IMG/VR virus record: IMGVR_UViG_3300032560_000113
Coordinates: 1 to 24,042 of that record
Strand: one strand, 5' to 3'
DNA: 24,042 bases
From: a virus
Within the stretch, counting starts at the first letter, position 1, and every line of letters starts with the position of its first letter. This document shows positions 3,766 through 22,488 of the stretch, one piece after another. The position numbers were made by a program, and so were the translations under genes. The notes under the pieces were generated by a model. It saw nothing but the letters and a program-made list of their open reading frames with translations. It was not told where the DNA came from and did no database searches.

Positions 3766-4410
3766 ATGGCTACTTACACGCCCTCTTGGGTAATGACCTA
3801 TGACTCGCTGAATGCAATCGTTCTTCAATATTTGGAGCGGTCTGATCAAGCGACGATTAACGCCATCCCTACTTTTATCACCCTTGCTGAATTTGAGATT
3901 GCCCAAGAGATCAAAACCTTGGGTCAGTTGCAGATTGTTGAGTCAACGACCATTGCAGGCAACCCAGTTCTTCAAAAGCCTGCCAGATGGCGTAAAACCG
4001 TATCAATGAACTACACCAATAGCAGTGGTGTACGAACCCCAATTTTGCTTCGTAAGTACGAGTATTTGACCAATTATTGGCCAAATAACACGCTTACTTC
4101 GGCGCCCGTTTACTATGCTGATACCAATTGGGATCACTGGTATCTAGCTCCAACACCAGATCAAGCATACACCTTAGAGGTGTTGTACTACGAACGCATT
4201 CAACCTTTGAGTTCTGACAATCAAACAAATTGGTTGACTCAGAATGCTCCAACGGCCATGTTGTTTGGCACTCTTTTGCAAGCAATGCCTTTCTTGAAAA
4301 ACGATCAACGGCAAATTTTCCAACAAAAGTACACCGAGGCTATTCAGTCACTCAAGACTGAAGACACTTCACGTCTTGGTGATCGTCAATCTGTTGCAGT
4401 GGACTCATGA
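3766..4410 (+). CDS. Head-tail adaptor-like virion protein
   Basis: A 214-residue protein without cysteine, starting at ATG 3766 behind GGGAG. The sequence begins with YDSLNAIVLQYLERSDQATI, then ITLAEFEIAQEIKTLG and a beta-rich middle (VLQKPARWRKTVSMNYT, ILLRKYEYLTNYWP, YYADTNWDHWYLAPTP), ending in a helix. This matches the phage adaptor proteins related to SU10-type podoviruses as I remember them: an N-terminal helical part that binds under the portal and W-rich beta strands. Its place upstream of a gp10/nozzle-like gene fits a neck or tail-assembly role. The gene ends in ATGA with the inserted GIY-YIG gene. Confidence 0.65.
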   Translation: MATYTPSWVMTYDSLNAIVLQYLERSDQATINAIPTFITLAEFEIAQEIKTLGQLQIVESTTIAGNPVLQKPARWRKTVSMNYTNSSGVRTPILLRKYEYLTNYWPNNTLTSAPVYYADTNWDHWYLAPTPDQAYTLEVLYYERIQPLSSDNQTNWLTQNAPTAMLFGTLLQAMPFLKNDQRQIFQQKYTEAIQSLKTEDTSRLGDRQSVAVDS

Positions 4411-5042
4411 AATACGCAATCTATATCATCACCAATACCGTGAATGCCAAGCAATATGTTGGCATTACGGCAGATTTGGAGCGTCGATGGAAAAGACATC
4501 GCAACGCTAATGAAGGACAATACATTCATCGAGCCATCAAGAAATATGGTGTGGATGCGTTTGTGTTTACGCATGTTGCAGACGCTTTTGATGCAGAGTC
4601 AGCAAAAATGATTGAGCGCATGTTGATTGTCGAGCACAATACCAAGATGCCTCACGGCTACAACATGACCGATGGTGGCGATGGAACTATGGGCATGATC
4701 AAAACTGAAGATCACAAGCAAAAAATTCGTGAGTCAAACAAGAAGACGTGGGACAGCAGGCCAGACTTAAAAAAGGCAATTGGCGAAATGAATAGCGTCC
4801 TGAAAAAAGGTAAACCCAGTGTCAAAAAAGGCATCCCAAGCGGTCGGAAAGGCATAGCTCACTCCCCTGAACATGCCGCAAAAATTAAAGAATCTTTAAA
4901 TACGCCAGAATCAAAAGCAAAACGAAGTGTGTCAGCTAAAAAGGCTTTGAACGATCCACAGTGGAAAGCAGAGCAAAGCGCTCGATTGAAAACAATTTGG
5001 GCTATTAGAAAAGCCAAGAAGGAAGCAGAATCATGTCTGTAA
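4407..5042 (+). CDS. GIY-YIG homing endonuclease with NUMOD3-type repeats
   Basis: A 211-residue protein. Residues 1-90 form the GIY-YIG domain: KYAIYIITN...KQYVGIT carries the two halves of the name motif, LERRWKRH holds the usual catalytic arginine, and the acidic IERMLIVEHNT follows. Residues 95-200 are basic and contain repeated short DNA-binding motifs of the NUMOD3 kind (TEDHKQKIRESNKK, SPEHAAKIKESLNTPESKAK). Such enzymes are selfish elements that cut cognate intron-less or gene-less alleles. It sits between the adaptor and a fibre-like gene, with a four-base overlap upstream and a ten-base overlap downstream, so it is expressed in the virion operon instead of being in an intron. Confidence 0.85.
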   Translation: MKYAIYIITNTVNAKQYVGITADLERRWKRHRNANEGQYIHRAIKKYGVDAFVFTHVADAFDAESAKMIERMLIVEHNTKMPHGYNMTDGGDGTMGMIKTEDHKQKIRESNKKTWDSRPDLKKAIGEMNSVLKKGKPSVKKGIPSGRKGIAHSPEHAAKIKESLNTPESKAKRSVSAKKALNDPQWKAEQSARLKTIWAIRKAKKEAESCL

Positions 5043-6298
5043 GCTACACAAACCCATACACAGGACAGACGATTAACCCATCACAAGTGGGTTATGAAAA
5101 TCTAACGCTCACAACCACATACACAGCGCTTCAATGGCCTGTCAATGGAAATACGACTTCTGTTGTTGCTAACATCATTGAAGCTACAGCTAACGTAAGC
5201 CCTGCGTATGTTGTTTTACCTCCTGCGACGCAAGTATCAGTTGGTCAAGCATTCATCATTAGAAACATTGGTTCAACCAATGCGTTTACGGTTGTTTCTC
5301 AGAACGCCAATTTAACGTACAACACAATTCAAACGGTTCCTACCGCGCCTACAACTGCAACAGTCAACACTTATTACATTTACCTAACTGACAATTCAAC
5401 TGTTCAAGGTACATGGTCTACTGTTGCTTTGGGTGTTGGTACTTCAGCCGCCAGTGCCGCCGCTTTGGCGGGACTTGGTTTGTTGCCGCTGAATACTACT
5501 TTGAACACCAATACGCAAGTTGCGTTGGTTTCTTCTGCTTACACTTTTAATTCAAGCGATGGATCGCAATTGTTTGTATGGACAGGTGGCGCAGGCACAA
5601 TGACCTTACCTACGGTAGCTAGTGTTCCATCTGGTTGGTATGTAATTGTCAAAAACGATGGCGCAGGCATATTGAATGTTACTGCACAAGGTTCAAGCAC
5701 AATTGATACAACAACATCAACAGTACAAATTCAAATAGCAAACTCTAGTGTTTTTGTATCCAATGGTTCAAATTGGTATACCTATGCTTTAGCACAGCAA
5801 AATGTATTCAATTACACCCAATTGTATTTAAGCCTTACTGGAGCCGCCGCTACGGTTACTTTAACCGCCGCTCAAGCCAAGAATGTTATTCAGCAGTATG
5901 CAGGTATTCTTTCTCAGAATACAACAATTATTGTTCCTCAGACGGTTCAGCTTTATTCAATTAGGAACAGTACATCTGGCGCATACACATTAACCATTTC
6001 AACTGGAGTAACTGGTGGTACAACATTCAACGTAACATCAGGTACAGCGGCACTTTTAGTGTGTGATGGAACTAATGTTTTCAGTGCAACATCATCATCA
6101 ACAAGTTTTACGTCACAGTTGACGTTAGGAAATGGTTCTGCGACCAATCCATCATTGAACTTTTCTGGAGATACAACTACTGGTTTGTATCTTGCCGCTT
6201 CAGGGCAACTAGGATTTGCAATTGGTGGAGTAAGCGCAGGAACATTAACGTCTAGCGGATTATTGTTACCTGTTGGCATTCAAGGCGGGACATTCTAA
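5033..6298 (+). CDS. Fibre-like virion protein
   Basis: A 421-residue, Ser/Thr/Asn/Val-rich protein with almost no charged residues and one cysteine. It is made of repeated beta-strand blocks (YVVLPPATQVSVGQAFIIRN; MTLPTVASVPSGWYVIVKN; YTLTISTGVTGGTTFNVTSG), each about 90-110 residues apart, resembling tail or head fibre shafts that bind surfaces. The end, NPSLNFSGDTTTGLYLAASGQL, matches the S-F-x-GDxxTG(I/L)Y segment that in many phage fibres precedes the chaperone tail; here the protein stops shortly afterwards at GGTF. It may work with the S74-type fibre at the left edge. Its stop overlaps the next ATG by one base (TAATG). Confidence 0.65.
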   Translation: MSVSYTNPYTGQTINPSQVGYENLTLTTTYTALQWPVNGNTTSVVANIIEATANVSPAYVVLPPATQVSVGQAFIIRNIGSTNAFTVVSQNANLTYNTIQTVPTAPTTATVNTYYIYLTDNSTVQGTWSTVALGVGTSAASAAALAGLGLLPLNTTLNTNTQVALVSSAYTFNSSDGSQLFVWTGGAGTMTLPTVASVPSGWYVIVKNDGAGILNVTAQGSSTIDTTTSTVQIQIANSSVFVSNGSNWYTYALAQQNVFNYTQLYLSLTGAAATVTLTAAQAKNVIQQYAGILSQNTTIIVPQTVQLYSIRNSTSGAYTLTISTGVTGGTTFNVTSGTAALLVCDGTNVFSATSSSTSFTSQLTLGNGSATNPSLNFSGDTTTGLYLAASGQLGFAIGGVSAGTLTSSGLLLPVGIQGGTF

Positions 6299-8373
6299 TG
6301 ACTGTAAAAGTTGCCGTTCTTCAAGCAGGTGCAGGCATCCAAAGGGATGGAACTGTATTTTCTGCTCCTTCTTATGTAGACGGTCAATGGTGCCGATTCC
6401 AATATGGTCGTCCTAGAAAAATGGGCGGTTATGAGGGCGCGTTTTTAAATGCTCCTAGCATCAGCCGTGGCATGATCATGCAGTCCCAAAGCGGACAAAC
6501 ATGGGTGGTTTCTGGATTTAACAGTAGCATTCAACAATGGACTATTGGTAATAGTGATGCGATTGGGTCTGGCCCACAAGAAGTATTTGTGATTGGAAGC
6601 ATCACAACGATTGGAATTGCAACCGCAGGTGCAGGATATACAAATGGTACATACACAAGTATCACGCCCATAACAAATAGTGGAAATGGTTCTGGAGCAA
6701 CAATAACTGTTGTTGTATCTGGGGGAATAGTTACAACTTTGACCGTTACTGCAAGTGGTTCTGGTTATGGTTATGGGGATACGTTTAGTTTTTCAACATC
6801 AAGTCTAGGTGGTGGATCTCCAACAACTTTATTTGTTGGAACGATTACATCGGTCACATATGATGGTCTAAATTTAGCTCCTTCAAACAATTACTATGTG
6901 GCCGATACAAATGCGCTGTGGCAATTTGATACGGGTTTCGATCCGTTTGGGACGGGCAATAATAATTTGATTGCGCACCCTGGCGACAATCTGCAGTACA
7001 TAGACAGCCAAACCAACGTCAGGCCATTGATTGGTACGTTTACAGGTACAAGTTTGACGCCTGTTGGCGTTTTTACAGCATCGGGAACAACAACAAACGG
7101 AAGCCCTAACGTTACTTTTGCAACTACAAACATTGCAATGGGTGCGGGTGTATCGGTTTATGGGACGGGTATTCCTGCTAACACCAAGATTGTTTCAGCC
7201 ACCACAACGGGTGGAGTTTGGACGGTTACATTAAATAACAATGCCACTGCTTCTGGCACAGTGACTTTGACCTTTGACAACAATATTGCTGTAAGCGGTG
7301 GTGTTGTAATGCTTTATCCATATCTTTTTGTGTACGGAAATTATGGGTTGATCCAAAACTGTTCAGCAGGCGACTTTAACAATTGGACGTCAGCAGATGC
7401 CAACGCCAATAACGTATCCTCTACAAAGGTCGTTAAAGGCATGGCTCTTCGAGGAGGAACAACATCTCCTAGTGGACTGTTTTGGACAACTGATTCTGTT
7501 GTGAGGGTGACTTATTCGCCCCAAACTGTAGGCACGTCAACCATTTATTGGCGCTATGACTTGATCACTCAGCAGTCTTCAATCATGTCAAGCCAGTGCG
7601 TGATTGAGTATGACGGCATCATCTATTGGGTAGGTGTTGATAGATTCTTAATGTATAACGGTGTTGTATCTGAAGTTCCCAATACACAAAATACCAACTA
7701 TTTCTTTGACAACATCAATATTAATCAAAGACAAAAAGTATGGGCTACGAAGATTCCTCGGTGGGGGGAAATTTGGTTTTTCTATCCACGCGGTAACTCA
7801 ACCGAATGTAACGACGCCATCATTTACAACGTCCGTGAAAAATGTTGGTATGACGCAGGCTTGGCAGATGGTGCCAATCGTTCTGCAGGCGTCTTTTCTG
7901 AAGTGTACAGAAAGCCAATTTGGGCGGGTAATGTGGCCAATTCAGTAGGAACTTATACGCTTTGGAACCACGAAGTTGGAACCGATCAAGTCTATTTGAA
8001 CAACGTCAACGCCATCAATTCTTACTTTGAAACCAATGTATTGGGAACTGGTGTATTGGGAACTGGTGCAGGATTGGTGGGTGCTCCTTCTGGTGGAGAT
8101 AACCTCTGGACTCGTTTAGAGCGCGTTGAGCCTGACTTTGTACAGTCTGGACAGATGAGTTTGACGGTCACTGGTAAGGGCTATGCAGACGATACAGACC
8201 AAACTTCGAGCGCTTATACATTTGACTCAACAACCCTTAAAATTGATATGAAGGAACAGCGCCGTGAGATGCGTTTGAGGTTCACAAGTAACACTCAAAA
8301 CGGCAACTATTTCATGGGCCGAGTTGTATTGAGTGTCGAGACAGGCGACGTTCGCGGAACGGGAAATCCATGA
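6298..8373 (+). CDS. P22 gp10 / nozzle-like tail protein with two inserted beta domains
   Basis: A 691-residue protein. The N-terminus (AGIQRDGTVFSAPSYVDGQWCRFQYGRPRKMGGYE) and C-terminal half (GLFWTTDSVVRVTY, WRYDLITQQSSIMSSQ, IIYWVGVDRFLMYNGVV, WGEIWFFYP) give recurring W/Y blades as in the beta-propeller of packaged-DNA stabilisation or nozzle proteins of P22/SU10-type podoviruses. These proteins form the lower tail ring. Two low-complexity Gly/Thr blocks interrupt the fold at residues about 100-180 (GAGYTNGTYTSITPI, GSGYGYGDTFSF) and about 258-330 (SVYGTGIPANTKI, TASGTVTLTF); similar decorative modules occur in many phage structural proteins. Family placement is by pattern recognition. 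Confidence 0.6.
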   Translation: MTVKVAVLQAGAGIQRDGTVFSAPSYVDGQWCRFQYGRPRKMGGYEGAFLNAPSISRGMIMQSQSGQTWVVSGFNSSIQQWTIGNSDAIGSGPQEVFVIGSITTIGIATAGAGYTNGTYTSITPITNSGNGSGATITVVVSGGIVTTLTVTASGSGYGYGDTFSFSTSSLGGGSPTTLFVGTITSVTYDGLNLAPSNNYYVADTNALWQFDTGFDPFGTGNNNLIAHPGDNLQYIDSQTNVRPLIGTFTGTSLTPVGVFTASGTTTNGSPNVTFATTNIAMGAGVSVYGTGIPANTKIVSATTTGGVWTVTLNNNATASGTVTLTFDNNIAVSGGVVMLYPYLFVYGNYGLIQNCSAGDFNNWTSADANANNVSSTKVVKGMALRGGTTSPSGLFWTTDSVVRVTYSPQTVGTSTIYWRYDLITQQSSIMSSQCVIEYDGIIYWVGVDRFLMYNGVVSEVPNTQNTNYFFDNININQRQKVWATKIPRWGEIWFFYPRGNSTECNDAIIYNVREKCWYDAGLADGANRSAGVFSEVYRKPIWAGNVANSVGTYTLWNHEVGTDQVYLNNVNAINSYFETNVLGTGVLGTGAGLVGAPSGGDNLWTRLERVEPDFVQSGQMSLTVTGKGYADDTDQTSSAYTFDSTTLKIDMKEQRREMRLRFTSNTQNGNYFMGRVVLSVETGDVRGTGNP
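8038..8067 (+). repeat. 15-bp tandem duplication in the gp10-like gene
   Basis: GTATTGGGAACTGGT occurs twice head to tail (8038-8052, 8053-8067), encoding VLGTG twice. It is an in-frame slip in a loop of the virion protein. Confidence 0.85.
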
Positions 8374-8621
8374 TTTCGTACGATCCTCGCGGAATGACAT
8401 GGGATCAGTACAATAAGCTGATGGAAGAGCAGTTTGCGTCCAATCAGCTAGGGCATGTGCCTGAAGAGAATTGGAGAACATGGGTGGACGGCATGAATGG
8501 TATTGGTTATTTTGTCCAATCAGGAATACCAGATCACCGTCCATTTGATCATTGGCAAGATTGGGCAATGGCTATGGCGGGCATCATGTCGATTTCGCCT
8601 AACTTGGGGAGCACATATTGA
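8370..8621 (+). CDS. Small virion-block protein, 83 residues
   Basis: Begins at ATG 8370, overlapping the gp10-like stop by four bases. The protein is Trp-rich for its size (MTWDQYNKLMEE, NWRTWVDGM, HWQDWAMAMAGIM) and probably helical, with no membrane segment or signal. Comparable small proteins with a C-terminal F..WQ.WA..L.G.M pattern appear between nozzle-like and internal-protein genes in related phages as I remember them. Function unknown; likely a small structural or assembly component. It overlaps the next gene by four bases (TTGA). Confidence 0.55.
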   Translation: MISYDPRGMTWDQYNKLMEEQFASNQLGHVPEENWRTWVDGMNGIGYFVQSGIPDHRPFDHWQDWAMAMAGIMSISPNLGSTY

Positions 8622-8986
8622 AACCGTCCGACGTCATTACAGCCGATTCACATAATCGAAACTTAGACCCTAAAAAGGTCATGGGAGCCGCCCAAGTAGC
8701 AATCAAAAAGGGCGGCAAATTATTTCATCACGGTAAAACGTCACTGCTTTTGGAAAAGTTGAGTGATGGGGATTATTCAACCCATTTGTTTACCCAAGAT
8801 TCTCCAGTTTTATTGGCTAGAGCTTTGGCTTTGTTTTATAGAAAAATTGAGAAAAGTGACATTCGCATCATTTATGGTGATGCCACTGGGCCCATGCTTA
8901 ACTTGCTTAGACGATTAGCAAGACAAGTTGGCGCTCCTATCAAGGATTCTGACCGTCATGGTTTTACATGGATGATTAAATTATGA
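8618..8986 (+). CDS. Conserved small phage protein, unknown function, 122 residues
   Basis: The best start is TTG 8618, which overlaps the previous stop as TTGA and gives the N-terminus MKPSDVITADSHNRNLDPKK; the next in-frame ATG would remove about 21 residues. The protein alternates strands and helices: a beta section (GKLFHHGKTSLLLEKL, STHLFTQDS) then helices (LARALALFYRKIEK, LNLLRRLARQVGAP) around a strand IRIIYGD. It has the layout of a small alpha/beta fold. Similar proteins directly preceding the internal-protein gene are familiar in this phage type. Its stop overlaps the ATG of the cysteine-rich gene by four bases. No enzymatic motif is seen. Confidence 0.55.
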   Translation: MKPSDVITADSHNRNLDPKKVMGAAQVAIKKGGKLFHHGKTSLLLEKLSDGDYSTHLFTQDSPVLLARALALFYRKIEKSDIRIIYGDATGPMLNLLRRLARQVGAPIKDSDRHGFTWMIKL

Positions 8987-10980
8987 GCAATTATTCAGGC
9001 TTTGGTGGCTTACAAACACAAAACACTGGTGCTCAACTTCATACACCAAATATTGAGCCAAATGACATTTTGCCTTGCGGACAAGCAACGCCACACTATG
9101 GTGGTGGTGGTGGTTTACTGAGTGCGGCTCTCGATATTGCTACTGGCGGTGCCAGTAGTTTTTTATGCGTACTTGAAGATGCGGCTTGTGCAATCTGTGC
9201 AATTTGCGCAATTGATAGTGCGGCATGCGTTGTTTGCTCTGCATCATGTTTTGCATGCTCTGCTTCTTCTGCGGGTTGTGCAACCTGTGCAACCTGTGCA
9301 ACTTGTGCAAATTGTGCAAATTGCACATCATGCGCTAATTGCTGTACAAGCGGATGTTGCACAAGTGAATGTTGCACAACTAAGTGTTGCAAAACTGAAT
9401 GTTGTGCAAGTCAATGTTGTACAACGCAATGTTGCAATACTAAGTGCTGTTCTACTCAATGTTGCAATCCTCAATGTTGTGTAAATGGATGTTGTTCAAC
9501 TCAATGTTGTAACACATGTTGCAAGAGCGGATTATGCTGTGTAAGTTGTTGCACATCTTGCTCTTGTTGCACTACCTGTTGCACTAGTTGCTGTAAATGC
9601 TCTTGCGTTGATTGCTGTTCTACCTGTTGCACTAATTGCTGTTCTTGCACATCTTGCTCTTGTTGCACTACTTGTTGCACAGATTGCTGTGCATGCACTT
9701 GCTGTACAAATTGCTGTGGCTGTTGCACATGCGATTGCTGTGCATGTTGCACATGCGATTGTTGTGCATGTTGTACTTGTGATTGCTGTGTTTCTTGTTG
9801 TACTTGTTGTACTGCTTGCTGTACTTGCTGTACAGCTTGCGGTTGCTGTACTTGTTGTACTGCTTGCTGTGCTTGCTGTACCGATTGTTGCACTTGCTGT
9901 ACAGCTTGCGGTTGCTGTACTTGTTGTACTGCTTGCTGTGCTTGCTGTACCGATTGTTGCACTTGCTGTACAGCTTGCGGTTGCTGTACTGCTTGCTGTG
10001 CATGCTGTACTGCTTGCTGTGACTGCTGTTCTTGCTGTTGCTCTTGCAAAAATAAGAATCACAAAAATAAAAAAAGCAATAATGTTGGTAAAAAACCCTC
10101 CAAAAATGTTGCCAAACCAGTTTCTAGCGGAGCAGGAAGCAATGCTGGTAGTGGAGCCTTATGCGGTCAAGCTTCAGAATTGGTCGGTCATGCAGGAAAT
10201 TTAGGAATTGACACTGAAAAAGGCTTAACTCAGATAGGTGGTGGCTTAGGTGCAAATCCCGATATGGGCATGAAAGAAGGAGAAATGCTTGCTCAAGGCG
10301 GTCTTGCTCACTTTGCCAAAGGTGGATCAAGCAAAGATTGCTGTACTGACTGTAAATGTTGGGTGAAGATATTGAACAAAGGTTTGAAATGTGCTGAACC
10401 TGATTTCAAGTGTTCTGCATGCACCATGCTGAGAAGCCAAACCAATCCAAATTTGGGCAATATTACTCTGCACTCTTTGAGACAGATGAAGTGTGGAATC
10501 ACAGGTAGTGCTGACGGTGGATTGGCGCACGCCTATAAGGCGGCAACTCCTAAAGGGCACAATCCTGAGTTCATCACTGGCGTGACAGGCTACTACGCTT
10601 GTGGTGGCGGTACAGGCCAATCTGACGACATTCCTGCGATGCTTCATGACGGAGACTACGTTATGGATGCTGAGACCGTATCGGCTCTTGGAGACGGTTC
10701 TAGCAAGGCGGGCATGCATGTCTTGGAAGGCTTCCGTAAACAGCTACCACACAAAGAAACAGTTGGGTCTAATCCTGTTCCTGCAAAAATTGCAGACGGG
10801 GAGTATGTTTTCCCTTCGGCGTTTGTCACGGCGCTAGGAGGAGGGGATAATAAGAAAGGTTCAGAAATTCTTGATGGATTGCGAAAGAAATTACGAGATC
10901 ACAAGCGTTCTGCACCTTTGGATTCAATCCCACCAAAGGCAAAGACCCCAATTGACTACATCAAAAAGGGAAAGAAATAA
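8983..10980 (+). CDS. Virion-type protein with a giant cysteine-rich domain
   Basis: A 665-residue protein. Residues 1-60 are Gly-rich and ordinary. Residues 62-355 contain about 137 cysteines by hand count, close to half. Cys is spaced every third residue at 99-120 (CATCATCATCANCANC), then as CC every five residues at 120-176 (TSGCC TSECC TTKCC and so on), then as nearly continuous CC pairs separated by T, A, D, S or G. A Lys/Asn linker follows (about 356-380). Residues 400-665 resemble a known phage virion family: GGLAHFAKGG, and two copies of a DGDYV/DGEYV module (about 548-590, 597-640). A few extra cysteines continue (DCCTDCKCW, 452-460). Disulphide cross-linking or metal binding is the obvious inference. 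The C-terminal family match gives confidence that it is a real virion gene. Confidence 0.75.
   Translation: MSNYSGFGGLQTQNTGAQLHTPNIEPNDILPCGQATPHYGGGGGLLSAALDIATGGASSFLCVLEDAACAICAICAIDSAACVVCSASCFACSASSAGCATCATCATCANCANCTSCANCCTSGCCTSECCTTKCCKTECCASQCCTTQCCNTKCCSTQCCNPQCCVNGCCSTQCCNTCCKSGLCCVSCCTSCSCCTTCCTSCCKCSCVDCCSTCCTNCCSCTSCSCCTTCCTDCCACTCCTNCCGCCTCDCCACCTCDCCACCTCDCCVSCCTCCTACCTCCTACGCCTCCTACCACCTDCCTCCTACGCCTCCTACCACCTDCCTCCTACGCCTACCACCTACCDCCSCCCSCKNKNHKNKKSNNVGKKPSKNVAKPVSSGAGSNAGSGALCGQASELVGHAGNLGIDTEKGLTQIGGGLGANPDMGMKEGEMLAQGGLAHFAKGGSSKDCCTDCKCWVKILNKGLKCAEPDFKCSACTMLRSQTNPNLGNITLHSLRQMKCGITGSADGGLAHAYKAATPKGHNPEFITGVTGYYACGGGTGQSDDIPAMLHDGDYVMDAETVSALGDGSSKAGMHVLEGFRKQLPHKETVGSNPVPAKIADGEYVFPSAFVTALGGGDNKKGSEILDGLRKKLRDHKRSAPLDSIPPKAKTPIDYIKKGKK
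9721..9792 (+). repeat. 24-bp repeats in the cysteine-rich domain
   Basis: Three consecutive 24-bp units (9721-9744, 9745-9768, 9769-9792) encode CCTCDCCA, CCTCDCCA and CCTCDCCV. Units one and two differ at one base, the third at several. The unit is built from TGY codons, so the strand carries dense TGC/TGT triplets prone to slippage. Confidence 0.85.
9841..9978 (+). repeat. Perfect 69-bp tandem repeat in the cysteine-rich domain
   Basis: Two identical 69-bp units (9841-9909 and 9910-9978) each encode 23 residues starting GCCTCCTACC and ending CCTCCTAC. A third unit begins at 9979 and matches for 12 bases before diverging, and the last 20 or so bases of the unit also occur just before 9841. 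Identity at synonymous sites indicates recent duplication. Confidence 0.9.
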
Positions 10981-12177
10981 ATGGCTAACTTACTCCAATC
11001 ATCCCAAAATAAGTCAACGTGCGCACCATCGTACTACACAAACTATCTTCAACAGTTAGCAACGTGCGGTCAAGGGGCTGAGAAATGCGCTCAGTTTGTA
11101 GGGGCTCAACCTTTACAGCAACAAGCTTTTTGTACCATTGGTCAAACGGCGGGAGCACAACAACCCACGTTCCAAACTGGAATGGGCTACATTGGTTGCG
11201 CGGCTCAGTCAGGCAGTCAGATTGGAGCTAAAGTTAGCCCTTATTTGGGCGCGGCAACTAGTGCAAGCCCACTTTGCGCGGCTAAACCATTGATCAGTCA
11301 ATCGCAAGGCATGAATTTGGGACAAGTGGCTCAGTGCTACATGAACCCATTCATTCAAAACCAAGTGCAGAATATGTCTGATATTGCTCAGAGAAATATT
11401 CAGCAGAACTTGTCTCCACAAGCCACAGCGGCGATTGTGGGTTCAGGTCAATTTGGTTCACAGCGTGGCGCTCAAGCTTTGGGTCAAGTTGCGGCGAATG
11501 CAGAGCAATGTCTTAGCGCAAACATTGGAAAGATGTTGACCTGTGGATATGGCCAAGCACTAAGTGCGGCAGGTCAAAAAGAGAGCGCATTGGGTCAATT
11601 GGCAGGAACTACAGAGCAAGCACAAGCGGCTCAGAATCAAGCTCAATTGCAAGCGGCACAAACTGCGGCATGCGCACAGTCAAGGCAAGCGGCGGCACAG
11701 CAAGCGGCAGGTCTTGGCATGGGTACGTTGGGTACTCAAGCGGCCGCTCAAAATTTAGCATGTATCAATGCTTTGGCCACGTTAGGCGCTCAGTGCCAAC
11801 AGATCAAACAGAATGCTCAGTGCTACGACTTCACTAAACTGGCAAAAGAAGCTAGTTTGATGCAAGGACAAGCCATTCCAACATCGGTTAAGACAACCAT
11901 GTGCATGTCGCCTTTATCTGCAATTGGCGCGGCGGGTGCGGCGGCCAAAGCATCTGGATTGACATGCTATCTCAGCAATAAACTAGGATGTGTTTTTAAA
12001 GGTACACCTTGCACAATATGCTGTGGAAGTGTAGTCTGTGGAAGTGTAGTCGATGTGTGTAATTACAGCATGGGATGCGGTTCTTTCTTAAACGGTTTGA
12101 TTAAAACTGCTACAGGTGGAAGTGTTGGTTGTGCATCGACCCGTAATCTTGGCGCGTTGCCTGCAAGGAGAAAATAA
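10981..12177 (+). CDS. Cysteine-enriched internal virion protein
   Basis: A 398-residue, Ala/Gln/Gly-rich protein starting right after the stop of the cysteine-rich gene. The core NIQQNLSPQATAAIVGSG and QFGSQRGAQALGQ (about 139-168), followed by long Gln/Ala helices (about 200-245), NALATLGAQ, and AIPTSVKTT.MSPLSAIG near 300, matches a phage structural family I recognise. Its members lie between the DG(E/D)YV-type protein and two larger internal proteins and may be ejected with the DNA. What is odd is about 23 cysteines, spread through the whole length and densest at the C-terminus (CVFKGTPCTICCGSVVCGSVVDVC). Homologues as I remember them are nearly free of cysteine. Function as a structural partner of 8983-10980 is inference. 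Confidence 0.65.
   Translation: MANLLQSSQNKSTCAPSYYTNYLQQLATCGQGAEKCAQFVGAQPLQQQAFCTIGQTAGAQQPTFQTGMGYIGCAAQSGSQIGAKVSPYLGAATSASPLCAAKPLISQSQGMNLGQVAQCYMNPFIQNQVQNMSDIAQRNIQQNLSPQATAAIVGSGQFGSQRGAQALGQVAANAEQCLSANIGKMLTCGYGQALSAAGQKESALGQLAGTTEQAQAAQNQAQLQAAQTAACAQSRQAAAQQAAGLGMGTLGTQAAAQNLACINALATLGAQCQQIKQNAQCYDFTKLAKEASLMQGQAIPTSVKTTMCMSPLSAIGAAGAAAKASGLTCYLSNKLGCVFKGTPCTICCGSVVCGSVVDVCNYSMGCGSFLNGLIKTATGGSVGCASTRNLGALPARRK
12022..12051 (+). repeat. 15-bp tandem duplication encoding CGSVV twice
   Basis: TGTGGAAGTGTAGTC occurs twice head to tail (12022-12036, 12037-12051), duplicating a Cys-containing pentapeptide in the C-terminal cysteine cluster of the preceding gene. It shows cysteines being added by slippage here as well. 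Confidence 0.85.
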
Positions 12178-13688
12178 TGGCAAAAGATGATTTAAAAGAT
12201 TACACATTTAGTGGTGGGTTGGCCAATGTCAATCCACAAGGTCTTTCTGAGCAAGATTTGCAAAAACTTAGAGATATCACTGATCAAAAAATTGAAGAGC
12301 TACAACATCGATATGATCAACCCAATTGGTGGAAGGTGGCCGCAGGGTTTTCAAAGCCCCAATTAGGTGGTTTCTTGGCTTCTGCAAGCAGTGCGGCAGA
12401 AGCTATGGGTGAAAACGTAGAAAAACAACGTGCTCAAATGGCTCCTATTGCTCAGATGCAAATCAATCGTGAGCAATCCAACATGTTGCTTAACCAAAGA
12501 ATTAAACAAAACCAATTATTTAATGCTTGGAAAGCAAGTAAAAAGCCAATGGATGAAGATACTTATACAAGTATTGCCGCTCTTGGAAATGAAACAGAAG
12601 TGGCAAAATCAGCCAAACAATATTGGGATCAAGCCAAAGGTCGTGTTGGTACGATTGGTGATGCTGAAAAGCTTGCTTCACAATATCCACGACTTGATTC
12701 AGCATTTAAAGACTTTATTCAAGCGGGAGCAAATCCTAATGCCGACTCCAATGAAGTTAAGCAAAAGCAAACTCTTTATGAGCAAACGCTGAACGCGGCC
12801 AAGCCACCACAGACTGATGATGCAACATGGGCGGGATTAAGTCGTGAGCAAAAGCAAAAAGCAATTGACAAGTACGCTGAAGATCAACAAAAGATTGGTT
12901 TGACTGATGAACAACGAATGAAAGTTGATCATGATCAAGCCATACCTCGCATGACGATTATGCGCGACATTCGTGATTTGACTTTAGGTAAGGGTCTAAA
13001 AGACTCTACAGTCAAAGATGAAAATGGGAAAGAAGTTACTCTCACAGGACAACAACAAATGCAAAGGTTGTTGGGCATGTTTGGTGGAGACAATCCATTT
13101 GAAATTGTGGGTAGGGCCGCCGCAGACGGTAAATTTGGAGAGCTCTTTAAAGGTGCTGATGACTTGGTTCGTAGGGGCATGATGACGCCTGAAGCACGTC
13201 GTGAGTTTGAAACTTTAGCTAAGTTATTGGCTCAACAGCAAGTGGCTTTGCGTAGTGGTGCTGTTAATCCAACGGATGCGTTTACAGCGTTGCAACAGAC
13301 GGCGACGCCTGGTGTCTATAACAGCCAACAAGCCTTGGTCACCATTCTTGACTTGATGGCCCACAACGAGCGCAACAACGTCGACAAGTACCAATACATC
13401 TTGACCAAAAAGCCTAATGCACGTCGCATTGGCGCTGATGAAAACTTCTACGAAATGCAACGCAAGTTTGCAAAAGAGCACAGTGGAATTGCATTGGGTA
13501 AACCAATGTATGACACGCCAGATTATTATAGTCCTTACACCACTAGACAATCAAAAGAAGAATCAGAAGGAAAATCCAAACCCAATCAAGGTTCTACCAG
13601 AAAATCTCGCATTGTTGGAATGAATGGTAATTGGTGGGAAAGGGATGAGAAAACTGGAAAATTTGTAGATACAGGGGAGAAACCTTAA
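12177..13688 (+). CDS. Large internal virion protein, unknown function, no cysteine
   Basis: A 503-residue protein joined to the previous gene by TAATG. It is highly helical and charged: a coiled-coil-like N-terminus (SEQDLQKLRDITDQKIEELQ), a WWKVAAGFSKPQLGGFLASAS segment near residue 50, then long Gln/Lys helices (EKQRAQMAPIAQMQ, NREQSNMLLNQRIKQNQL). The C-terminus is polar (SRIVGMNGNWWERDEKTGKF). The position directly before a muralytic-type virion protein and the helical character resemble the ejection or internal core proteins of podoviruses. No enzyme motif is seen. The absence of any cysteine contrasts sharply with the two upstream genes. Confidence 0.55.
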   Translation: MAKDDLKDYTFSGGLANVNPQGLSEQDLQKLRDITDQKIEELQHRYDQPNWWKVAAGFSKPQLGGFLASASSAAEAMGENVEKQRAQMAPIAQMQINREQSNMLLNQRIKQNQLFNAWKASKKPMDEDTYTSIAALGNETEVAKSAKQYWDQAKGRVGTIGDAEKLASQYPRLDSAFKDFIQAGANPNADSNEVKQKQTLYEQTLNAAKPPQTDDATWAGLSREQKQKAIDKYAEDQQKIGLTDEQRMKVDHDQAIPRMTIMRDIRDLTLGKGLKDSTVKDENGKEVTLTGQQQMQRLLGMFGGDNPFEIVGRAAADGKFGELFKGADDLVRRGMMTPEARREFETLAKLLAQQQVALRSGAVNPTDAFTALQQTATPGVYNSQQALVTILDLMAHNERNNVDKYQYILTKKPNARRIGADENFYEMQRKFAKEHSGIALGKPMYDTPDYYSPYTTRQSKEESEGKSKPNQGSTRKSRIVGMNGNWWERDEKTGKFVDTGEKP

Positions 13689-15055
13689 TGGACAATGAAG
13701 TACCTTTATCTTCGTATTACAACAACCCTGGCAATTTGAAGCCACCAAAAGGAGTGACCTATGAAGGTCAAGTTGGTGTTGATCCTGACACTGGATTTGC
13801 CATTTTTCAAGACCCTGAATATGGTCACAAAGCTCTTGTTGGCGACATTAGCGCCAAAATTAAACGCGGTTTAAATACGCCTGATAAGTTCATTGATGTT
13901 TACACTCCTAAAGATGACAATAATGAAGAATCTAGAGCAAATTACAAAACACACATTGCAAAAGCATTGGGATTAAAAAGTCCGAATGATCCTTTTCCAG
14001 AAAAATCTGCTGAACAAATTGCAAAAGCGATCAGTGAGTTTGAAAGTGGAAACTATACAAACAAGCCCACAGATATTAATCCTATGTCTGGCAAGTCTTA
14101 TGAAGATACAGCCAAAGATACGGAAAAATCTGGCAAAGCATTTGATGGTAGCGAGCTCAACACAAACAAAGTCTCAGAAGCTGAAAAACTACATCCAAAA
14201 AAAGTGGTGGATGATAGTGATCCAAGAAGTTTACCTGGCGTCCAAAAAGCGGAAAAAAGCGTTTTAGGAACACTAGGAGCTGTTACTGGTGCTTCAACAG
14301 CCGCAGGTATTGAAACAGGCAGAAAGGTTCTTCCTTTGGTGCCTAATATTTACAGCCAAGTAATGGGATTGGATCAAAATATTAATCGCCCATCGACTCG
14401 AATGAGCATGCAAAGTTATTTGAACAGCCAAGTGCCTCACACATTGGATTTGCATTTGTCGGATCTTGAGAAGGAAGTGACAAATGCAAGACGTGCAGTG
14501 AACCCAGGCGTTGCGCCAGTGAAGCTCCGAACTATGTCCGAAGTACAAGACGCACTTAAGGAAATTAAGTTTAAGCCTGAAGAGGTAAAGACAAAGCCTC
14601 GTGTTGAAATGGTTGAAGGTAAGCCAGGCGTTTTCCGTCAAACTGGCGAGTTCACTACCTCTAGAACCCCTGCACAAGCAGGCATTGATTTAACCAAGTA
14701 TGAACGCAACCCCAAAACACCAATCATGAATGAGATCAAGGGTAGCGCCAAAACTGCAGGCAACATTGCTAAAGGCGCTTTTCCATCTATCGGTCGAATT
14801 GGTCTAGGTGCCTTGGGTGGTCTTGGTGCATTGACCAGTGGCTATGATACTTTTGAGCATGCTCGTGAGCATGGTTGGAAAGACCCTAGAACATGGTCAA
14901 AAGCCGCCGCAACCCTTGGTGGCGGCTTGATGATGATCCCAACACCGATGACCGAAGTCATTGGCGGTGGGTTGTCTGCAATTGGGATGGCTCCTGACAT
15001 TTATGATTATTTCCATGATCAAGAGCCAGAGCCATCATCTGCTAAGAAGCAATAG
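13688..15055 (+). CDS. Virion-associated protein with NNPGNL muralytic-type domain
   Basis: A 455-residue protein coupled by TAATG to the previous gene. The N-terminus has the NNPGNL motif (residues 12-17), then GFAIFQDPEYGHKALVGDI, KFIDVYTPKDDNNEESRANY and HIAKALGL. This order (NPGNL, F..F.....G..AL, W/Y-x-P-DNN, Y) matches a domain found in phage structural lysins and ejected virion proteins thought to open peptidoglycan. Residues 120-340 are polar and of unknown role. Residues about 355-445 are Gly/Ala-rich and mildly hydrophobic (IGRIGLGALGGLGALTSGYD, AAATLGGGLMMIPTPMTEVI), suited to membrane insertion. There are no cysteines. Likely the last gene of the rightward virion block; convergent genes follow. 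Confidence 0.6.
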   Translation: MDNEVPLSSYYNNPGNLKPPKGVTYEGQVGVDPDTGFAIFQDPEYGHKALVGDISAKIKRGLNTPDKFIDVYTPKDDNNEESRANYKTHIAKALGLKSPNDPFPEKSAEQIAKAISEFESGNYTNKPTDINPMSGKSYEDTAKDTEKSGKAFDGSELNTNKVSEAEKLHPKKVVDDSDPRSLPGVQKAEKSVLGTLGAVTGASTAAGIETGRKVLPLVPNIYSQVMGLDQNINRPSTRMSMQSYLNSQVPHTLDLHLSDLEKEVTNARRAVNPGVAPVKLRTMSEVQDALKEIKFKPEEVKTKPRVEMVEGKPGVFRQTGEFTTSRTPAQAGIDLTKYERNPKTPIMNEIKGSAKTAGNIAKGAFPSIGRIGLGALGGLGALTSGYDTFEHAREHGWKDPRTWSKAAATLGGGLMMIPTPMTEVIGGGLSAIGMAPDIYDYFHDQEPEPSSAKKQ

Positions 15056-21795: not shown

Positions 21796-21822
21796 CTTTT
21801 GAGAACTAACACAGGAGAGAAC

Positions 21823-22488
21823 ATGGATAAGCTTGAGGAATTTCACTACTTCACTACACCTGTCTACGCGGTGAAGAAACCTGATTTTTTACCTGCTGTA
21901 CGGGCTGTGTCTACAAAGTACTTGGATAAATCCAGAGCCCAAAAGAAAACCAAAAGACCGATCACTGTGATGAGTGCGAACTACTCACATGAAAAGTCAA
22001 TTGCTGAATTTGCGCAGTACGTTTCCCAGACTGCATGGAATATTTTGAATGCGCAAGGTTACAACGTGGATGCCAAGGTGACTTACTTCATGGAAATGTG
22101 GAGCCATGAGCACAACCACATGTCTCACATTGATCCACACATTCACCACAATGGATCTCAGATATCTGCGTTTTACTTTTTGGATGTACCGCAGAATGGT
22201 TGCAAGTTGGTGATCCATGATCCAAGGGAAGCCAAGCAAATTGTGAGCTTGCCTGAGAAGACACCTAAGATGGTGACACCTGCGGCCAATCAAGTGGTGT
22301 TTAACCCCGAAGCAGGTACGCTTATTTTGTTCAATGCATGGGTGAGACATTCATTAACGCGTAACCTCAACAAGACGGCACCATTACGTTTTGTTCATAT
22401 GAACCTTTCTGTTGCGCCCACACCCTCTTCTACTTCTAAGAAAAACCAACCACCCAAACCAGTTGAACCCAAAGTGGAGATCATATGA
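21823..22488 (+). CDS. 2OG-Fe(II) oxygenase-like protein
   Basis: A 221-residue protein starting at ATG 21823 behind AGGAGAG; an upstream TTG at 21799 lacks a ribosome site. The core resembles the phage 2OG-FeII_Oxy family: EMWSHEHNHMSHIDPHIHHNG (91-111, likely iron-binding histidines within HIHHN), SAFYFLDVPQNGCKLVIHDPR (115-135), and PEAGTLILFNAWVRHSLTRN (162-181) with the distal His176 and Arg180 for 2-oxoglutarate. Such enzymes hydroxylate protein or nucleic acid substrates; the target in phages is generally unknown. The tail is a Pro/Lys linker (PTPSSTSKKNQPPKPVEPK). The gene follows a conserved TTAGA element and overlaps the next gene by four bases. Confidence 0.75.
   Translation: MDKLEEFHYFTTPVYAVKKPDFLPAVRAVSTKYLDKSRAQKKTKRPITVMSANYSHEKSIAEFAQYVSQTAWNILNAQGYNVDAKVTYFMEMWSHEHNHMSHIDPHIHHNGSQISAFYFLDVPQNGCKLVIHDPREAKQIVSLPEKTPKMVTPAANQVVFNPEAGTLILFNAWVRHSLTRNLNKTAPLRFVHMNLSVAPTPSSTSKKNQPPKPVEPKVEII

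Follow-up and report, generated by a model that had tools for sequence, protein, structure and literature searches.

A cysteine-rich pair in an ejection-protein operon

The window, which is the whole stretch of viral DNA that we analysed (24,042 nucleotides, positions 1 to 24,042 of IMG/VR record IMGVR_UViG_3300032560_000113), contains an ATG-started open reading frame on the plus strand at 10981-12177 that encodes a 398-residue protein, termed A. An earlier note on this DNA had described about 23 Cys spread through this protein, and the count is indeed 23 (5.8%): residues 14, 29, 36, 51, 73, 99, 119, 177, 188, 231, 261, 272, 281, 308, 329, 337, 344, 347, 348, 353, 360, 366 and 384. At a frequency of 1.15%, the chance probability of at least 23 Cys in 398 residues is 5e-10. 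TGY codons number 23 in the coding frame and 10 and 20 in the remaining forward frames, and a protein-level argument for A depends on its homologues. The Cys-rich tail also contains the 15-bp duplication that had been noticed before, an exact tandem repeat (TGTGGAAGTGTAGTC x2, about nt 12022-12051, plus strand) that adds CGSVV and gives CGSVVCGSVV at residues 348-357; it is absent from L003 and L004, the two relatives compared. An AlphaFold model of A was of low confidence (mean pLDDT 55.6), the tail region included.

Directly upstream on the same strand (8983-10980) lies the gene for UP, the upstream partner of A, a protein of 665 residues and 148 Cys that co-varies with A. Its residues 60-355 (9160-10047) form an ultra-high-cysteine domain in which 137 of 296 residues are Cys, arranged in (CCxxx)n and CCTCCTA-type repeats whose other letters are chiefly T, A and S. 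UP holds 148 TGY codons in the coding frame versus 7 and 54 in the two remaining forward frames, which clearly makes the excess a property of the protein; both codons are used (81 TGT, 67 TGC). The C-terminal domain (10438-10977, plus strand) is conserved in relatives with and without Cys in A, hereafter Cys+ and Cys-, the window being Cys+. It includes a DGDYV segment that resembles a tape measure protein (PDB 8zdo chain S) over 39 residues only, with E 8.4e-4, and PHROG tape-measure families match UP weakly. Within this domain, residue C540 (YYA[C]GGGTGQ, codon 10600-10602, plus strand) is Cys in 45 of 58 Cys+ genomes and in 0 of 52 Cys- genomes. When five Cys-rich UPs were searched against Pfam up to E 10, four had no match and the fifth had one chance-level match to an unrelated family. 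AlphaFold confidence was low for the second model as well (mean pLDDT 41.4).

Downstream of A on the plus strand follow protein B, by position the next ejection-type protein (12177-13688, 503 aa), and protein C, a virion protein with an endolysin-like N-terminal region (13688-15055, 455 aa; phrog_873 endolysin, 8.2e-15). As previously claimed, both are devoid of Cys, and the proteins encoded at 3766-8373 hold few (0, 1, 1 and 5). In relatives of both states, the counterparts of B and C have little or no Cys (at most 2). Absence of Cys from B and C is nothing special; what is unexpected is the departure of A and UP from this rule.

Several further genes in and around this region deserve mention in their own right. 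A 122-aa gene at 8618-8986 (plus strand), whose position recalls T7 gene 13, has relatives in both states; its end looks acetyltransferase-like by eye, and it has no Pfam match. An 89-aa open reading frame with 6 Cys and a lipoprotein-like start lies near the lysis genes (1799-2068) and likewise has no Pfam match. The open reading frame at 4407-5042 is inserted between an SU10-type adaptor gene and a tail-fibre-like gene, and its start looks like that of a GIY-YIG endonuclease. The protein at 21799-22488 resembles, by eye, family CL31, which 8 of the 10 Cys+ genomes and 1 of the 7 Cys- genomes contain; these counts may be low, since the gene at the corresponding place in phage record MW202545, a putative 2OG-Fe(II) oxygenase, falls outside the CL31 cluster. 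In relative L019 (3551-5099 and upstream), an acyl-carrier-protein-like (ACP-like) gene, a 3-oxoacyl-ACP synthase gene (PF02801, 3.5e-17) and a gene of ~143 aa stand between the tail gene and UP, and the same arrangement occurs in L021, L032, L033, L039, L043, L045, L049 and L060. This places fatty-acid enzymes inside a virion-protein operon.

The assignment of A comes from its homologues and its position. The 'DNA ejection protein' family phrog_4287 matches 6 of 48 A-family members at E <= 0.01 (best 1.2e-5), and it matches the A of cultured Caulobacter phage GB2A at 1.6e-9 over residues 16-298. The window's own A gave no direct phrog_4287 match in the profile search and is tied to GB2A through homology (tblastn, 5e-13). 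A sits in an ejection-protein operon beside a lytic virion protein. By these profile matches and this operon position, A is a predicted member of the DNA-ejection proteins.

Two states of cysteine content

We collected relatives of A from IMG/VR with a single protein scan and two profile scans (the latter keeping the best 80 of 301 and the best 80 of 303), and relatives of UP by one IMG/VR scan with its C-terminus (best 80 of 260). A bacterial-genome scan added three contigs, each in a betaproteobacterial MAG, which suggest a freshwater betaproteobacterium as host for Cys+ members; no Cys+ phage of the family is known to be in culture. Among phage records, A matched only MW202545, a complete record obtained from a spring, and four Caulobacter phages belonging to the RW/GB2A group, a group described as one species in the portion of PMC11053796 consulted. 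The family is one of freshwater bacterial viruses. Three non-redundant sets were used: 75 A sequences (near-copies, L020 and L050 removed); 108 A sequences, 98 of them full length (near-copies, L002, L016, L018, L020 and L103-L156 removed); and a UP set in which identical C-termini were collapsed, leaving 110 of 253 pairs, with the window represented by a relative.

The 98 full-length A proteins divide sharply: 50 have exactly 0 Cys, 48 have 7-42, and none has 1-6. In the smaller sample of 75, 51 contain Cys and 24 contain exactly none. The 50 Cys-free proteins together comprise 19,285 residues without one Cys, for which the chance probability at 1% is ~1e-84 if residues are treated as independent. 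UP behaves similarly. Among UPs with an intact 5' end, at least 5 Cys were found in 45 of 53 Cys+ genomes and in 0 of 49 Cys- genomes, the latter comprising 42 UPs with zero Cys, three with 1, three with 2 and one with 4. We conclude that Cys in A is a two-state trait, and that UP follows.

Two other explanations were considered and set aside. Redox conditions of the sample or habitat are not the sole cause, as Cys+ and Cys- contigs share metagenomes (for example 3300025357, 3300025598 and 3300025389). Recoding of TGY is unsupported, since in both states other proteins (CL25, CL38) show conserved zinc-finger-like CxxC patterns. Separately, among 17 genomes, the conserved family CL11 (~330 aa, 321-339) lacks Cys in every one of the 15 genomes where it occurs, and the 212-aa family CL6 has 0-1 Cys; from these two families, Cys avoidance seems broader than the ejection proteins.

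Placement of cysteines in A and UP

A small core of Cys is near-invariant in Cys+ A proteins, consisting of C261 (45/48 rows with a residue there), C308 (43/46), C384 (43/44), C347 and C353. Around this core, placement is fluid: up to residue 315, 68 columns have Cys in some A sequence. In columns with at least 5 Cys, 85% of the cells of Cys- homologues are polar or Gly, versus 51% in other columns, as expected of exposed cross-linking sites. Total Cys is odd in 28 of 48 proteins. The 68 columns and the odd totals suit a loose network between molecules better than a fixed set of pairs within one. The only core pair that stands out by co-occurrence is C119 with C281, C119 always being accompanied by C281 (24/24 rows).

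The repeats of UP are similarly variable outside their CC pairs. Spacers differ by phage (T/S/A in the window, V/P/S in L004, D/E in L101, TVTGKK in L019) and vary freely while CC is kept, and Cys totals differ among near relatives (148 in the window, 97 in L001, 130 in L003). His is almost absent from the Cys-rich domains and Lys/Arg are scarce in most; in the window the domain has 5 K/R and 10 D/E in 245 residues, and in L101 it has 80 D/E and 7 K/R in 191. A (CCxxx)4 pattern scan of IMG/VR, restricted to the 45 most Cys-rich of 59 open frames at 80 loci, gave one long Cys-repeat protein, and by eye this sole such protein among the matches listed is an already known UP.

These features bear on what the Cys might do. 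Metal-thiolate binding is the main rival of the disulphide model that we set out below, although we consider it unlikely. It holds that the core of A would form a specific metal or Fe-S site, and that the UP repeats would store soft metal (Zn, Cu or Fe) in the virion, to be delivered or used in assembly. The near-invariant core of five Cys speaks for such a site, as does the residue that replaces two of the Cys: Cys- homologues mostly have Asp, another ligand residue, at the C261 and C177 sites (20/24 and 22/24). CC-dense repeats can also bind metal. Against it, the Cys of A beyond the tail are scattered without CxxC pairing; the UP domains are nearly His-free and mostly poor in K/R, whereas metallothioneins are Lys-rich; and none of the five Cys-rich UPs matched a metallothionein Pfam family up to E 10.

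Were quantity all that mattered, the ejected A and UP might act as a sacrificial thiol sponge that absorbs oxidants or electrophiles at entry. The wide variation in Cys number and position over those 68 columns and the variable spacers would suit such a role. This leaves unexplained the near-invariant Cys, the motif common to the two proteins (below) and the choice of two particular virion proteins, and we regard the idea as very unlikely.

Acylation finds its support in neighbouring genes. Under this explanation A and UP would be S-acylated for insertion into the host envelope, some phages encoding the ACP and 3-oxoacyl-ACP synthase themselves. Of the non-redundant loci, 9 of the 51 Cys+ ones and none of the 24 Cys- ones carry the ACP-like and synthase genes immediately before UP. 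However, the cassette was not seen in the other 42 of 51 Cys+ loci, the window included (some contigs are incomplete), and 137 Cys in one domain far exceed any such need, which makes the explanation highly improbable.

A tail motif common to A and UP

The tail of A carries a C-terminal motif, GCASTRNLGALP (12127-12162, plus strand), that holds C384 and is diagnostic of the Cys+ state. In the form GC....G[AG]LP it is found in 45 of 48 full-length Cys+ A proteins and 0 of 50 Cys- ones. The three exceptions are L101, which has a GAKP variant; L072, whose A lacks the motif and whose UP has it; and L012, whose A lacks it and whose UP is cut by the contig end. The same pattern is present in UPs of 9 of 54 Cys+ genomes and 0 of 51 Cys- genomes, and in 0 of 1187 other proteins of 17 genomes. 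A profile built from the A tail also picks up some of these UP segments, at weak scores (best E 6e-4).

Specificity of the pair

For a test of specificity we used 17 large phage records, of which 10 are Cys+ and 7 are Cys-, and the 25 protein families with at least 4 members per side. Ranked by Cys difference between states, with kinship ignored, A came first (p 0.0005) and UP second (p 0.003). The next-ranked families differ by about one Cys (0.66 vs 0.38%, p 0.009; 0.57 vs 0.28%, p 0.02). When the 25 tests are corrected for, only A stays below 0.05; for UP, having just five Cys- members sets the limit. Within the Cys+ state, Cys counts of A and UP in 40 full-length pairs correlate with a Spearman coefficient of 0.77. 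Independent contrasts on an N-half A tree with Cys columns removed gave r 0.57 (p 5e-5, 43 contrasts), with a marginal sign test (26/39, p 0.053); the A trees were built by a quick method and leave many forks unresolved.

The earlier note had proposed a co-evolved adjacent pair with enrichment confined to these two genes. This part stands, given the joint switching, the correlated counts and the top ranks among 25 families. Shared disulphides or a metal cofactor, the chemistry that the note suggested for the partners, are hypotheses. Its stricter expectation, that Cys positions in A would be found only alongside a Cys-rich UP, is refuted by homologues that share many of the positions and have a UP without the repeat domain. 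The A of L007 has 12 of the window's 23 Cys positions beside a UP with 9 Cys, and the A of L048 has 10 of the 23 beside a UP with 2 Cys. Genomes of this type rule out a strict dependence of the Cys of A on the giant UP domain. From these sequence comparisons, the giant domain appears to have been elaborated in a pair that was Cys+ beforehand. No other Cys-rich protein evidently replaces UP in low-UP genomes, in a screen of the 17 genomes for open reading frames of at least 90 aa and at least 4.5% Cys, although many of the frames listed look spurious.

Neutral drift or DNA-level repeat slippage, with Cys of no function, is scarcely credible in light of these data. The repetitive UP domain, its differing Cys counts in close relatives and the exact 15-bp duplication in A speak for slippage. 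It does not account for a TGY excess confined to the coding frame of UP and built from both TGT and TGC, for the strict two-state split and the long run of Cys- A residues without Cys, or for the co-variation of A with UP and their common motif.

Switches between states

On an A tree built without Cys columns, the state changes twice, both changes being forced by starred branches. An N-half A tree with more rows needs five changes, two of them forced, and places the Cys+ A proteins of L075/L085 and of L175 among Cys- rows, although L175 is a long branch and its placement is unsure. These proteins have Cys at columns where the main clade has none, yet carry the same tail motif. In L075, 7 of the 12 Cys before C281 lie at columns that are Cys-free in all ~48 main-clade rows, and C281, C308, C384 and the tail are in common with the main clade. 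The UP C-terminal domains of L075, L085, L082, L091 and L175 group with Cys- UPs, and on that tree three changes are forced. The simplest reading of L075-type A proteins would be recombination of the tail followed by fresh Cys gains.

A proposed disulphide-cross-linked pair

We favour a reading in which A and UP, both belonging to the ejection apparatus, co-evolve and are cross-linked by disulphides; to this we assign a probability of about 0.45. A would be a DNA-ejection protein and UP a pilot or tape-measure-like protein of the DNA-delivery apparatus, and UP would presumably be ejected too. In one set of lineages the two have become thiol-rich. Their Cys occupy mostly positions that are polar in Cys-free homologues and, in UP, low-complexity CC repeats. 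After leaving the reducing cytoplasm, the Cys of both proteins would form intermolecular disulphides, either within virions once these are released or, following ejection, under the oxidising conditions of the host periplasm, and A and UP would set into a cross-linked conduit or plug, like the ultra-high-sulphur proteins of the hair or feather matrix. B and C remain Cys-free and would escape capture in the network, while the common GC....GALP motif could be a docking or nucleating element that ties A to UP. A search of 31 records for a phage thioredoxin or glutaredoxin gave no match above the cut-off, so the oxidation would fall to host enzymes or to air.

Some observations weigh against the disulphide model. 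If the disulphides formed ahead of ejection, the proteins might be unable to pass a narrow tail. The near-invariant C261, C308 and C384 hint at a specific site and not a loose net. In 8 of 53 Cys+ genomes UP has fewer than 5 Cys, so that a UP-A network would be thin there.

In its fullest form, the disulphide-cross-linked pair would mean that a genome-delivery apparatus has been turned into a redox-set, two-protein sulphur resin, adopted by an all-or-none switch, more than once, and tagged by GC....GALP; we offer this fuller form as a possibility that is rather less than probable. Ejection proteins must partly unfold, exit the capsid and assemble anew within the envelope of the host. With Cys purged from them in some lineages and loaded into two proteins in others, the family offers a testable case of redox chemistry in phage genome delivery and a natural experiment with two states, more than one switch and a short diagnostic motif.

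Comparison with known systems

By eye, the gene order of the window is similar to that of T7 genes 12-16. Podophage ejection sets (T7 gp14/gp15/gp16; P22 gp7/gp20/gp16) follow the same order of tail gene, small gene, ejection-type proteins and, last, a lytic-domain protein. T7 gp15 and gp16, together 2,065 aa, are without Cys, like B and C; T7 gp14 has 1 Cys in 196 aa, in contrast with 23 in A and 148 in UP. UP is like tape measure or pilot proteins over a short segment only and adds the Cys-repeat domain in its N-terminal half. The word stem 'cystein' does not occur in the portion of an ejection-protein review at hand (PMC8954989), and searches of the open-licence literature listed no account of ejection proteins rich in Cys. 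A and UP are probably a variant of the DNA-ejection proteins, in which the Cys-loading appears new.

Outside phages, metallothioneins share with UP a very high Cys content and CC pairs, but UP is far larger, with hardly any His and, in most cases, little Lys. There is also a likeness to avian EDCRP and mammalian KRTAPs, for which the portion of PMC4423139 consulted describes CC repeats, variable repeat number and convergent gain. As far as that portion goes, these proteins and UP have in common CC-containing short repeats, repeat numbers that vary between close relatives and a Cys-bearing partner. No KRTAP Pfam family matched the five Cys-rich UPs up to E 10, and the likeness is best taken as analogy, not homology. 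UP would then represent an independent origin of an ultra-high-sulphur repeat protein outside animals. If the disulphide-cross-linked pair is real, A and UP would be a bacteriophage counterpart of the keratin-KRTAP matrix, with Cys throughout a family whose other members tolerate none.
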